IMG/VR virus record: IMGVR_UViG_3300042350_005590
Coordinates: 1-28,672 of that record
Strand: one strand, 5' to 3'
Source of the DNA: a virus
DNA length: 28,672 bases
Shown: piece by piece, positions 18,615 through 22,200 of the stretch
How the letters are laid out: every line of letters starts with the position of its first letter
Position numbering within the stretch: position 1 is the first letter of the stretch
Made by a program: the position numbers and the translations under genes
Notes under the pieces: generated by a model
Database searches by the model: none
What the model saw: only the letters and a program-made list of their open reading frames with translations
What the model was told of the DNA's origin: nothing

Positions 18615-20144
18615 ATGACAGACATCACCCGGTTCAAAGCCATCTTTGCAGGCCTGGACATCGCGTATGGAACCTACCGGATCAAGTCAGAACGAGGCGA
18701 CGGCAAGCAAGCCGGTCAGGCCACGGTGGTTAGGAAACCCCCAACCGACGACCTTTGGGAAAAACATCTTGATGGTGTTGAGCCTTCCCTGGGCATTATT
18801 CCTATTCGTGCTGACAACACTTGCATCTGGGGTTGCATTGATATTGATCAGTATCCTCTTGACCATCGAGGACTGGTGGAAAAAATAGCGCAGCTCAAGC
18901 TGCCGCTGGTGGTCTGCCGCAGCAAGTCCGGCGGCGCACACGTCTTCCTCTTCACCCGCGAGCCGCAGCCCGCGCGTGAGTTTCAGGGCTACCTGAAAAA
19001 CGCCGCGGCGCTCCTGGGCGAGGCCGGGCGAGAGATCTTCCCCAAGCAAGCCGAGATCCTCGTGGACCGAGGAGATACCGGCAACTTCCTCAACCTACCG
19101 TACTTCGGCGGTGATAACGGGACGCGTTATGCATTCAATTCGGACGGCTCGGCAGCCACCCTTGAAGAGTTCTACGGCCTGTGGGCGGCCAATGTTCAGG
19201 AGTCGATATCGGCTTTTCCTGATCCGCCGAAGGCGCCTGATGCGCCCATCAAGGACGGGCCGCCTTGCCTACAGGCGCTATGTGCTCAAGGCATTCCGGA
19301 AGGCGGTCGCAACAATACCCTGTTCAACGTAGGCATCTTCCTGAAGCGCGCGCACCCGGCCGCGTGGGAGGACAAGCTGGTCGAACACAACATCAAGTAT
19401 GTTGGCCCGCCGCTGCCAAACAACGAAGTCCAGCTGATCATCAAGCAGGTCGGCAAGAAGGACTACAACTACAAATGCAAAGATGCCCCGCTCAACAGTT
19501 TCTGCAACAGCGGACTATGTCGTACCCGTAAGTTCGGAATTGGTTCCGCGGGCCCTGATGCTCCGCAGATCGCTTCCCTGTCAAAGTACGCCAGCGAACC
19601 GCCTCTGTGGTTTCTTGACGTTAACGGCCGCCGCCTGGAACTTGATACCGACAGTCTGTTTGTGCAGACTGCCTTCCAAAAGGCCTGTGTGGAGAAGCTC
19701 AACGTCCTCCCGCCAACGCTGCGAAAGCAAGACTGGGAGCACCTGCTCAATGCCCTGCTGAAGGAGATGGTGGAGACGGAGCAGATCTCTGAGGCCAGCG
19801 AGGACACGAGCATCACCGGCCGCTTCAGCGACCTGCTCGAAGAGTTCAGCACTCACATGCAGCAAGCGATGGAGCGCGACGAGATCATCATGGGTCGGCC
19901 CTACACCGACGACGATGAGGCCAAGACCTATTTCCGCATGAAGGACCTCGAGGCCCACCTGCTGCGCAACAACTTCAAGGGGATGACCACCCCCAAGATT
20001 GCCCAGCGCATGCGCGACATCGGCGGTGAGCCCATCAGTCTGTTCCTCAAGGGTCGGACCGTGCGCTGCTGGCGCATCCCCCGCTTCAACAAGCAGGACG
20101 CCCCGTTCACTACGCAGACCAAGCGCGAGGAGAGCCCGTTCTGA
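18615..20144 (+). CDS. Archaeo-eukaryotic primase-type primase-polymerase with PriL-like Cys cluster
   Basis: A 509-aa protein with a GAGAG ribosome-binding site. The catalytic motif D-x-D is seen at Asp76 and Asp78 in 'GCIDIDQYP'. 'SKSGGAHVFLF' (103-113) supplies the nucleotide-binding S-x-G-x-H-like motif with His109. 'NFLNLPYFGGDNGT' (157-170) follows, as in primase-polymerases of phages and mobile elements. A second domain contains 'GGRNNTLFNVGIFLKR' and Cys218, Cys288, Cys297 and Cys302 ('YKCKD...FCNSGLC'). This order resembles the Fe-S domain of archaeal/eukaryotic PriL. Metal or cluster binding is inference. The C-terminal 110 residues are helical and end 'REESPF', similar to the tail of the SSB-like neighbour. 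It should make RNA or DNA primers for the polymerase encoded 2 kb downstream. Confidence 0.8.
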   Translation: MTDITRFKAIFAGLDIAYGTYRIKSERGDGKQAGQATVVRKPPTDDLWEKHLDGVEPSLGIIPIRADNTCIWGCIDIDQYPLDHRGLVEKIAQLKLPLVVCRSKSGGAHVFLFTREPQPAREFQGYLKNAAALLGEAGREIFPKQAEILVDRGDTGNFLNLPYFGGDNGTRYAFNSDGSAATLEEFYGLWAANVQESISAFPDPPKAPDAPIKDGPPCLQALCAQGIPEGGRNNTLFNVGIFLKRAHPAAWEDKLVEHNIKYVGPPLPNNEVQLIIKQVGKKDYNYKCKDAPLNSFCNSGLCRTRKFGIGSAGPDAPQIASLSKYASEPPLWFLDVNGRRLELDTDSLFVQTAFQKACVEKLNVLPPTLRKQDWEHLLNALLKEMVETEQISEASEDTSITGRFSDLLEEFSTHMQQAMERDEIIMGRPYTDDDEAKTYFRMKDLEAHLLRNNFKGMTTPKIAQRMRDIGGEPISLFLKGRTVRCWRIPRFNKQDAPFTTQTKREESPF

Positions 20145-20146
20145 TG

Positions 20147-20176
20147 TTGCGTACCAGCATGTCGGCGCGTTATGAT
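20147..20176 (+). promoter_or_regulatory. Putative promoter for the HNH endonuclease gene
   Basis: TTGCGT (20147-20152) and TATGAT (20171-20176) are 18 nt apart, immediately after the primase stop. A nested hairpin follows in the leader: GGTGGC (20180-20185)/GCCACC (20209-20214) around GCTC-GACG-GAGC (20189-20200). Free-standing homing endonuclease genes often carry their own promoter and leader structure that restricts translation. That reading is inference here. Confidence 0.4.
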
Positions 20177-20263
20177 ATAGGTGGCCTAGCTCGACGGAGC
20201 GAAAAGCAGCCACCCTTACTGCCTGGCCAACTCTTCATTAGGGGTAGGTTTGAAGGGAAACCT

Positions 20264-20671
20264 ATGTCTACGCTCACCAAGTTGTGTGAGTGCGGATGCG
20301 GCCAGCCAGCGCCGATTGCCATCCGCACCAGAACCAACCGCGGCCAAGTCAAGGGCCAGCCTCTGCGCTTTATAAACGGCCACAACAGCCGTCTTTTGGA
20401 TTCAGACGAGCAGCGTCGTCGCAATTCTTTTCGCGACCCGAGTCTTGAACGATACACGGGCAGCCGCGCAAACTACATCAAGCTCATGGGCCGACACATG
20501 CACCGTGCCGTTGCCGAGCAGATGCTTGGCCGTCCACTGCAGAAAGGAGAAATCGTCCACCACAAGGACGGAGACAAGTGGAACAACGACCCCAGCAACC
20601 TGGAGGTCATGACGCAGGCGGAGCACGCCCGCATACATTGCCACATTCGGTGGCACGGGAAACACGAGTGA
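20264..20671 (+). CDS. HNH homing endonuclease
   Basis: A 135-aa protein. The ATG at 20264 has a GAAGGGAAA site; an in-frame ATG at 20144 overlaps the primase stop but would add 40 residues of poor character across the promoter and hairpin. An N-terminal Cys cluster ('CECGCGQPAP', Cys8, Cys10, Cys12) and 'KGQPLRFINGHNSR' are typical of phage HNH proteins. The active-site segment (97-116) has His99, His100, Asp102, Asn107 and Asn112, followed by 'EHARIHCHIRWHG'. Such enzymes cut DNA and drive their own spread into sister phages. It sits between primase and helicase, its stop overlaps the helicase GTG start (GTGA), and the helicase P-loop is disrupted about 55 bp downstream. Confidence 0.88.
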   Translation: MSTLTKLCECGCGQPAPIAIRTRTNRGQVKGQPLRFINGHNSRLLDSDEQRRRNSFRDPSLERYTGSRANYIKLMGRHMHRAVAEQMLGRPLQKGEIVHHKDGDKWNNDPSNLEVMTQAEHARIHCHIRWHGKHE

Positions 20672-20727
20672 AATTACCTTTTGGAGGGACCGGGCCGGAG
20701 ATCAATAAGATCTTCGGCCCACCGTAA
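20668..20727 (+). pseudogene. Detached N-terminus of the UvrD-like helicase, ending at a TAA inside Walker A
   Basis: Starting at the GTG that overlaps the HNH stop, 19 codons in the helicase frame end '...EINKIFGPP' and then TAA (20725-20727). The frame resumes directly with 'LGAGKTTYLLNVVD'. Removing the six bases TAACTG would restore the canonical P-loop GPPGAGKTT. The stop sits in the loop of a perfect hairpin, GCCCA (20717-20721)/TGGGC (20729-20733). This short piece is therefore part of the downstream helicase gene rather than a peptide gene of its own. Confidence 0.75.
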
Positions 20728-20760
20728 CTGGGCGCAGGCAAGACAACCTACCTGCTCAAT

Positions 20761-22200
20761 GTGGTGGATCGCGAGCTCGGAGCCGGGACATCGCCCCACA
20801 GCATCGGCTACTTCAGCTTCACCCGCAAGGCAGCGCACGAGGCGCGTGACCGGGCGGTGCAGAAGTTCCCCAAGCTCAACCCGCGCACGGACTTCCCATA
20901 CTTCCGCACGCTCCACTCCCTGGCCTTCCACGTTCTTGGAACGCGGACCCAGGACATCATGCAGGCGGAGAACTACCGTGAATTTGCCCAGCAGGCCGGG
21001 ATCGAACTCAACTTATCATCCGACGATGAAGAGGCGTTCGTTAAGGCGGACAACCCAATACTCAACGAGATCAACTTGGCGCGTATTCGAGGGGTTGATC
21101 TACGCCAACATTACAACCAAAGTGGGCTGGACATCGAGTGGCATCACTTCGAATTTGTCGAGCGAACTTATCGTCATTACAAGAACGCCAACTACCTGTT
21201 GGACTTCACCGACCTGCTCGAGCTTGCCGTGGTCGAGTCGGATCATCTGCCTGAGCTTGACGTCCTCATTGTTGATGAGGCCCAGGACCTAAGCCGATTA
21301 CAGTGGAATTTGGTCGAAGCCCTGGCCGAAAAGGCGAAAAGAGTCTTCCTCGCCGGAGACGACGATCAGGCAGTATTCACTTGGGCAGGCGCTGACGTCA
21401 AGAGCTTTCTGTCCTTCCGTGGCCACATCACCGTCCTGGAGCAGTCCTACCGCGTCCCGGCCCGTGTGCACACCCTGGCCAACGAGATCGTCACCCGCAT
21501 CCGCGAGCGCCAGGAAAAGACTTGGCGCCCCCGCGACTTCGCAGGCGAAGTCTGTACCTACTACCGCTTCGAAGACATCCCCATTGCCGATGGCCAGTGG
21601 CTGCTGCTAGCGGCCACCAACTACATGCTCAACCCCATCCACGAGTGGCTCAAGAGCCTGGGGCTGCTGTTCGAGCGCAACGGCATCCCAAGCCTGTCAG
21701 CCAACATCGCCCACGCCGTGGCGGACTGGGAGCGGCTGCGCAGGGGCAAGACCGTATCGGGCGAGGCCATCAAGAACATATACAAGTACTTAGATACGAG
21801 TGCCGTGGCCCGGGGCCACAAGACCTTCAAGCACGGCGAGGCGACCCAGCACTACAGCCTGGAGCAGCTCAAAGAGCACTTCGGCCTGCAGACGGACGTC
21901 ATCTGGCACGAAGCCCTGACCAAGATCCCCGACGACCGCCGGGAATACCTCATCGCGTTGCTGCGCCGCGGCACGAAGCTGTCAGAGGTCCCCCGCATCC
22001 GCCTGTCCACCATCCACGGCGCCAAAGGCGGGGAGGCGGACAACGTCATGCTGCTCATGGACCTGAGCCCCAAGTTCGCCAAAGAGTACGCCATCAACGG
22101 CGACAACGTCCACCGCCTGTTCTACGTGGGCGTGACCAGGGCCAAGAAAACCCTGCATCTCATCCTTCCCAAGCATCAAGAAAAAGGATTCCGCCTGTGA
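20761..22200 (+). CDS. UvrD/Rep-like superfamily 1 helicase lacking its Walker A (interrupted gene)
   Basis: From the first plausible restart (GTG at 20761, with another at 20758) a 479-aa product is open. It has motif Ia 'FSFTRKAAHEARDRA', 'RTLHSLAFHVLG', motif II 'LIVDEAQDLSRLQW', motif III 'LAGDDDQAVFTWAGAD', motif IV 'LEQSYRVP', motif V 'RLSTIHGAKGGEADNV' and motif VI 'RLFYVGVTRAKKTLHLI'. All SF1 motifs except motif I are therefore intact. Motif I lies upstream in the same frame and is split by TAA plus CTG at 20725-20730. As written, no ATPase can be made without readthrough and loss of two codons. The intact remainder suggests a recent lesion, a sequencing or assembly error, or an unusual expression mechanism. 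The gene overlaps the polymerase start by GTGA. Confidence 0.85.
   Translation: MVDRELGAGTSPHSIGYFSFTRKAAHEARDRAVQKFPKLNPRTDFPYFRTLHSLAFHVLGTRTQDIMQAENYREFAQQAGIELNLSSDDEEAFVKADNPILNEINLARIRGVDLRQHYNQSGLDIEWHHFEFVERTYRHYKNANYLLDFTDLLELAVVESDHLPELDVLIVDEAQDLSRLQWNLVEALAEKAKRVFLAGDDDQAVFTWAGADVKSFLSFRGHITVLEQSYRVPARVHTLANEIVTRIRERQEKTWRPRDFAGEVCTYYRFEDIPIADGQWLLLAATNYMLNPIHEWLKSLGLLFERNGIPSLSANIAHAVADWERLRRGKTVSGEAIKNIYKYLDTSAVARGHKTFKHGEATQHYSLEQLKEHFGLQTDVIWHEALTKIPDDRREYLIALLRRGTKLSEVPRIRLSTIHGAKGGEADNVMLLMDLSPKFAKEYAINGDNVHRLFYVGVTRAKKTLHLILPKHQEKGFRL

Follow-up and report, generated by a model that had tools for sequence, protein, structure and literature searches.

The stretch of DNA analyzed here (the window) is a 28.7-kb viral contig, in which a helicase gene is flanked by genes for an AEP-type primase-like protein (PF22548) and a family A DNA polymerase. 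The helicase start is a GTG at position 20668, and the N-terminal segment that follows, VKLPFGGTGPEINKIFGPP (20668..20724, + strand; the counterpart of MTTEINKIFGPP in the related contig L005), is in frame with the main ORF. The latter resumes at 20731 with GAGKTTYLL (20731..22200, + strand) and encodes 489 amino acids of a UvrD-like SF1 helicase (PF00580, E = 2e-29). At the junction, the sequence reads ATC TTC GGC CCA CCG, TAA CTG, GGC GCA GGC AAG, so that GGC (20716-20718), CCA (20719-20721), and CCG (20722-20724) are followed by an in-frame TAA stop codon (20725-20727), CTG (20728-20730), and the GGC at 20731. An earlier note on this DNA had described a Walker A motif split by a stop codon and a 6-nt insertion, and our analysis bears this out: the coordinates match, and the sequence without TAACTG encodes GPPGAGKTT.

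Directly upstream lies an HNH endonuclease gene (20264..20671, + strand) encoding a 135 amino acid protein with an HNH_3 domain (PF13392, E = 6e-16). As the same note had claimed, its stop codon (20669-20671) overlaps the helicase GTG, and the HNH ORF ends 54 nt before the TAA. An int-alpA RNA (RF02996; 20179..20244, + strand; 55.4 bits, E = 4e-9) forms the 5′ leader of the HNH gene and is preceded by TATGAT (20171..20176, + strand; TATACT or TACACT in relatives), which inspection of the sequence suggests as a putative -10 element of the HNH transcript.

Recurrence of the interrupted helicase

The same six bases are present in L003, a contig from a different metagenome that is 99.96% identical to the window, and about 40 distinct viral contigs share the break, in the form of GPP, a stop codon, a few bases, and GxGKTT. 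In a comparison covering relatives with and without the HNH gene, this break recurs at the same place in UvrD-like helicases. Since L003 and about 40 distinct contigs carry it, the insert is, by sequence comparison, far beyond chance; on the same comparison the observation is real, and an assembly error, which the earlier note had offered as one explanation, is excluded by the presence of the same insert in many metagenomes. The source sequences are metagenomic, and most of the records are fragments.

Among 80 helicase relatives retrieved by downstream peptides only, TAACTR was present at the same place in nine; the others that were displayed had an uninterrupted GPPGxGKTT, and no other kind of break at the P-loop was seen in the displayed set. 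A pattern scan of 2.9 million viral contigs that required TRR in the insert identified 39 stretches. A neutral scan of the same contigs, which accepted any 6-nt insert at this spot, returned the same 39 stretches with a stop as the first codon in all of them, and no 6-nt insert with a sense first codon. The GPP and GxGKTT codons were built into the search patterns, and their presence is no independent evidence. The 36 distinct 6-nt inserts use TAA, TAG, and TGA, all commonly, and their second codon is always CCN or CTN (CYN). A looser pattern added four further, more divergent loci. Two patterns run against 84,980 bacterial and archaeal genomes gave zero matches. Annotated phages were searched by protein; every one of the several homologues inspected was uninterrupted, and none of the isolated phages checked had the insert.

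Insert length, codon choice, and RNA signals

All 6-nt inserts have a C right after the stop. A C in this position is a weak termination context, and these inserts keep the frame, as would be expected if a near-cognate tRNA decoded the stop to give GPP-X-L/P-GxGKTT, with two extra P-loop residues. A scan for inserts of variable length returned mostly 6-nt inserts, plus the variants L187 to L191. Three of these (L188, L190, and L191) carry the 7-nt insert TAATCCT (CCG, TAATCCT, GGT), after which the helicase goes on in the +1 frame, and L189 has an 8-nt insert (CCA, TGATGCCG, GGC), after which it goes on in the +2 frame. The 7- and 8-nt inserts begin with the stop and end with CCN, directly before a GGN codon, and downstream of them the shifted helicase frame is open. 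Readthrough therefore cannot restore the gene in these loci. It would also predict inserts with a sense codon if two extra residues were tolerated, and it does not explain the codon constraints described below; we regard readthrough as very unlikely.

In L189, an ATG overlaps the stop (ATGATG) and a Shine-Dalgarno (SD) sequence lies nearby, so that ribosomes might reinitiate at this locus, judging from its sequence. As a general explanation, reinitiation at a non-AUG or nearby start after the stop is extremely improbable: the other loci have CCN or CUN after the stop, which are poor start codons, the product would not have the β strand preceding the P-loop, and the constraints on the hairpin and on the last proline codon would be unexplained.

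Based on sequence comparison, we consider it highly probable that translation is programmed to hop over the insert (a stop-hop, or short bypass). In the window, the predicted take-off codon is CCG (Pro; 20722..20724, + strand), the stop that would be bypassed is TAA (20725..20727, + strand), and the predicted landing codon is CTG (20728..20730, + strand). The main set is constant in having CCN, a stop, and then CCN or CUN directly before a GGN codon. Two loci fit the hop model less simply. The first, L187 (3865-3910), has CCU UGA C at the same place, which fits an RF2-like +1 slip to CUU giving GPPDGKTGTGKTT; it is the only locus that fits an RF2-type +1 shift, as the 6-nt inserts need +6. The second, L178 (3540-3860), has a UvrD helicase broken one codon later (GGT, TGAGC, ACA), with a 5-nt insert, a Gly take-off codon, and an imperfect landing codon; a divergent HNH gene lies alongside, and a strong hairpin abuts the take-off codon.

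Codon choice on both sides of the stop is constrained. The take-off codon was CCG, CCA, or CCT at the 40 interrupted loci and never CCC, which is the commonest codon at this position in uninterrupted relatives (35/56 versus 0/40, p = 8e-12). Among the CUN landing codons, CUU occurs only after CCU (3/3) and CUR only after CCR (20/20; Fisher 6e-4). The loci are related to each other, and both p-values overstate the independent support. This third-base covariation is what re-pairing of a single tRNA would predict from the sequences. Landing and take-off codons are identical in 6 of 40 loci, and pairing of both with the same tRNA is possible in nearly all. A point against the hop is that CUN landing codons are commoner than CCN (23/36), and landing of tRNA-Pro on CUN needs a G·U pair at the middle position, where a matched CCN would be stronger.

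Just 5′ of a hairpin that ends at the take-off codon there is usually an SD-like sequence, which in most relatives is AAGGAG. In the window, the SD-like element is GGAGG (20683..20687, + strand), and the stem-loop (GGGCCGGAGATC/GATCTTCGGCCC; 20692..20720, + strand; MFE z = -3.1) has 12 bp, with a 3′ arm that stops 1 nt short of the take-off codon. All 37 interrupted loci with enough upstream sequence have a long hairpin here: their longest helix up to the take-off codon measured 8-19 bp (mean 11.4), whereas the range was 3-12 bp (mean 6.3) among 57 relatives without the interruption (p = 4e-15, a value inflated as independent support by the relatedness of the loci). This helix outperformed 99% of shuffled sequences in 78% of the interrupted and 2% of the uninterrupted loci. 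Both arms vary in sequence, and compensatory pair types occur at several positions. When the hairpin is left out of the count, the SD and the take-off codon are 0-6 nt apart in 32 of 37 loci, most often 2 nt, and 5 nt apart in the window. Short SD spacing is typical of +1 shifts (PMC5009743), and hairpins shorten the SD spacing of T4 genes 38 and 25 (PMC3014915). Taken from the sequences, the SD and the 5′ stem-loop are likely to be stimulators of the hop. A different hairpin, of 5 bp (GCCCA/TGGGC), to which the earlier note had drawn attention, is indeed present at 20717-20733; it does not recur in relatives and so is not a conserved signal.

A dead gene, in which a scar of nuclease cutting and repair leaves a helicase that has no activity or is translated from a start farther downstream, would be in keeping with the adjacent HNH gene and with a stop inside an essential motif. 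The dN/dS values of interrupted loci against their nearest uninterrupted relatives are 0.02-0.17, much like those of uninterrupted pairs, and 0.02 for the window helicase against L005, indicating from sequence comparison that the downstream helicase is under strong purifying selection. Moreover, the downstream ORFs are full-length, the hairpin and stop are conserved, the break occurs in many lineages, and downstream starts would lose the Walker A strand. Usually there is no other UvrD-type helicase in the record: the interrupted gene was the only UvrD-type match in 10 of the 12 records examined, most of which are fragments. The two matches in G008 may be parts of one gene, and a clear second helicase is present in G010 only. 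Loss of function is thus a most improbable reading, and the pseudogene proposed in the earlier note is refuted by the dN/dS values together with the recurrence of the insert in many metagenomes. Of the four options in that note, which are partly supported overall, it is unusual decoding that gains strong support from sequence comparison, specifically as a hop over the stop.

The HNH gene, int-alpA, and probable mobility of the insert

Upstream of the helicase, an HNH gene was seen in 18 of 43 interrupted entries and in 0 of 57 entries without the interruption. The helicase tree requires 11 changes between the two states, of which at least nine gains or losses are forced by well-supported branches. 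L005, which is 96-97% identical to the window, represents an empty site: its sequence reads CCGTTCTGATG, ACCACC, GAGATCAACAAG, and positions 20147..20697 of the window (+ strand; 551 bp) stand in place of ACCACC. Relative to L005, TAACTG is added 27 bp beyond this block. In addition, the ATG that starts the helicase in the empty site is placed in frame with the HNH ORF in the window (20144-20671), which could give a 175 amino acid form of the HNH protein.

The predicted hop site can also outlast its neighbor. In L139, it is kept and the HNH gene is mostly lost, leaving a tail remnant. Its close relative L121 has both the HNH gene and int-alpA, and both are largely deleted in L139.

The HNH domain (PF13392) and the sporadic presence of the gene, seen in the tree and in the near-identical empty site, suggest by analogy that the HNH gene and the insert probably make up a homing cassette like the one suggested for T4 gene 60. 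Considering this likeness, the HNH genes found only beside interrupted helicases, and the empty site in L005, it is plausible that the break originated as an insert protecting the target site of the HNH endonuclease, which would have its cleavage specificity for the P-loop DNA.

Int-alpA is also present in L003, L013, L015, L020, L044, and L045, and was not detected in many interrupted loci. In many viral contigs (loci L083-L130), it is located just 5′ of the start codons of HNH-like and other genes. The RNA has a possible pseudoknot between its loop and downstream sequence (CCCUU/AAGGG), and its SD lies inside a small hairpin. It resembles a translation leader more than a free sRNA. No clear case of another broken neighbor was found beside int-alpA-led genes.

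The structured RNA upstream and a hairpin adjoining the inserted bases would suit RNA processing, in which an intron, a ribozyme, or a nuclease and ligase, perhaps with the int-alpA RNA, cut a few nucleotides from the mRNA. This reading is very improbable, as int-alpA is undetected in many interrupted loci and behaves as a leader preceding the starts of unrelated genes, and as processing does not predict a removed segment that always opens with a stop of any of three kinds. Neither an Rfam intron match, in the window or in six related loci, nor a group I intron core was found. We also considered an intron running from int-alpA to TAACTR, with an upstream ATG readable as exon 1, which would give a good P-loop. 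This candidate was rejected because a conserved -10 promoter is the better reading of the "exon", and because int-alpA precedes the starts of unrelated genes and was not detected at many interrupted loci.

A predicted hop and its relation to known bypass systems

In the proposed stop-hop, the ribosome would translate the short N-terminal segment as far as GPP. Once CCG occupies the P site and the stop has entered the A site, the peptidyl-tRNA-Pro would come off its codon, the mRNA would slide by 6 nt, and the tRNA would re-pair on CUG (C-G, U·G, and G with position 34). The next codon to be decoded would be GGC, and the product would have an intact Walker A motif, GPPGAGKTT. The SD would be near the P site only once the hairpin folds, and folding together with SD pairing may push the ribosome forward, in a manner that we liken to the 5′ stem-loop in T4 gene 60 and the close SD in RF2 +1 frameshifting. 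A Pro-Pro-stop context terminates slowly, which may give the hop time. The insert would spoil the nuclease site, and the bypass would keep the helicase working.

The closest known system is T4 gene 60 (PMC5009743; PMC3014915), which likewise has a stop right after the take-off codon, a 5′ stem-loop, an SD-like element, and an adjacent HNH homing gene, with an insert proposed to guard against cleavage. There, as predicted here, the same tRNA pairs again farther along the mRNA. The hop would be 6-8 nt here versus 50 nt in gene 60, the take-off codon is Pro rather than Gly (GGA), and the landing codon is CCN or CUN and often not identical to the take-off codon, unlike in gene 60. Only about 9-26 codons precede the stop, without the KKYK-like nascent peptide that acts from about 25-30 residues upstream in gene 60. 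In addition, the break recurs in many phages, whereas gene 60 is one gene.

Other systems share single features. In synthetic "stop hops" in E. coli, a tRNA hops over a single stop to an in-frame codon (PMC5009743); those are artificial constructs, and the sequences here are natural. The RF2 (prfB) +1 frameshift has an SD about 3 nt before the P-site codon, a stop followed by C, and a P-site tRNA that slips forward. Here, the shift would be +6 to +8 (+1 in L187 only), and a hairpin sets the SD spacing. The Magnusiomyces mitochondrial bypass elements are short blocks bypassed in many genes, with imperfect take-off and landing matches (PMC5009743); they are mitochondrial and apparently context-independent, in contrast to the conserved stop, SD, and hairpin of these phage genes. 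In T4 genes 38 and 25, a hairpin also brings the SD closer to the P-site codon (PMC3014915), at initiation in those genes, whereas here it would act in elongation.

A 2016 review stated of natural in-frame stop hopping that "no occurences are known" (PMC5009743), and a search of later literature, excluding most subscription journals, brought up no natural stop hop. Stop-skipping has long been known in artificial constructs; as far as we found, a natural recurring case is new. On balance, we think it likely that these are widespread mobile short bypass cassettes in phage helicases, in which an SD and a spacing hairpin drive tRNA-Pro from CCN to CCN or CUN over a stop. If so, they would be the first stop-hops to be found recurring in nature outside mitochondria, and HNH homing to conserved P-loop DNA would have spread them.

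T4 gene 60 has been close to being the only well-studied bypass in bacteria and their viruses, and so its rules could not be told apart from the accidents of one gene. The roughly 40 natural variants described here differ in stop, hop length, and codons, and each fits a single oligonucleotide; such short variants would make the take-off trigger, the choice of landing site, and the roles of the 5′ hairpin and SD directly testable. Gene callers truncate such genes, which serves as a warning. The locus also suggests that the protective insert of a homing endonuclease may be tolerated in an essential motif because translation skips it.
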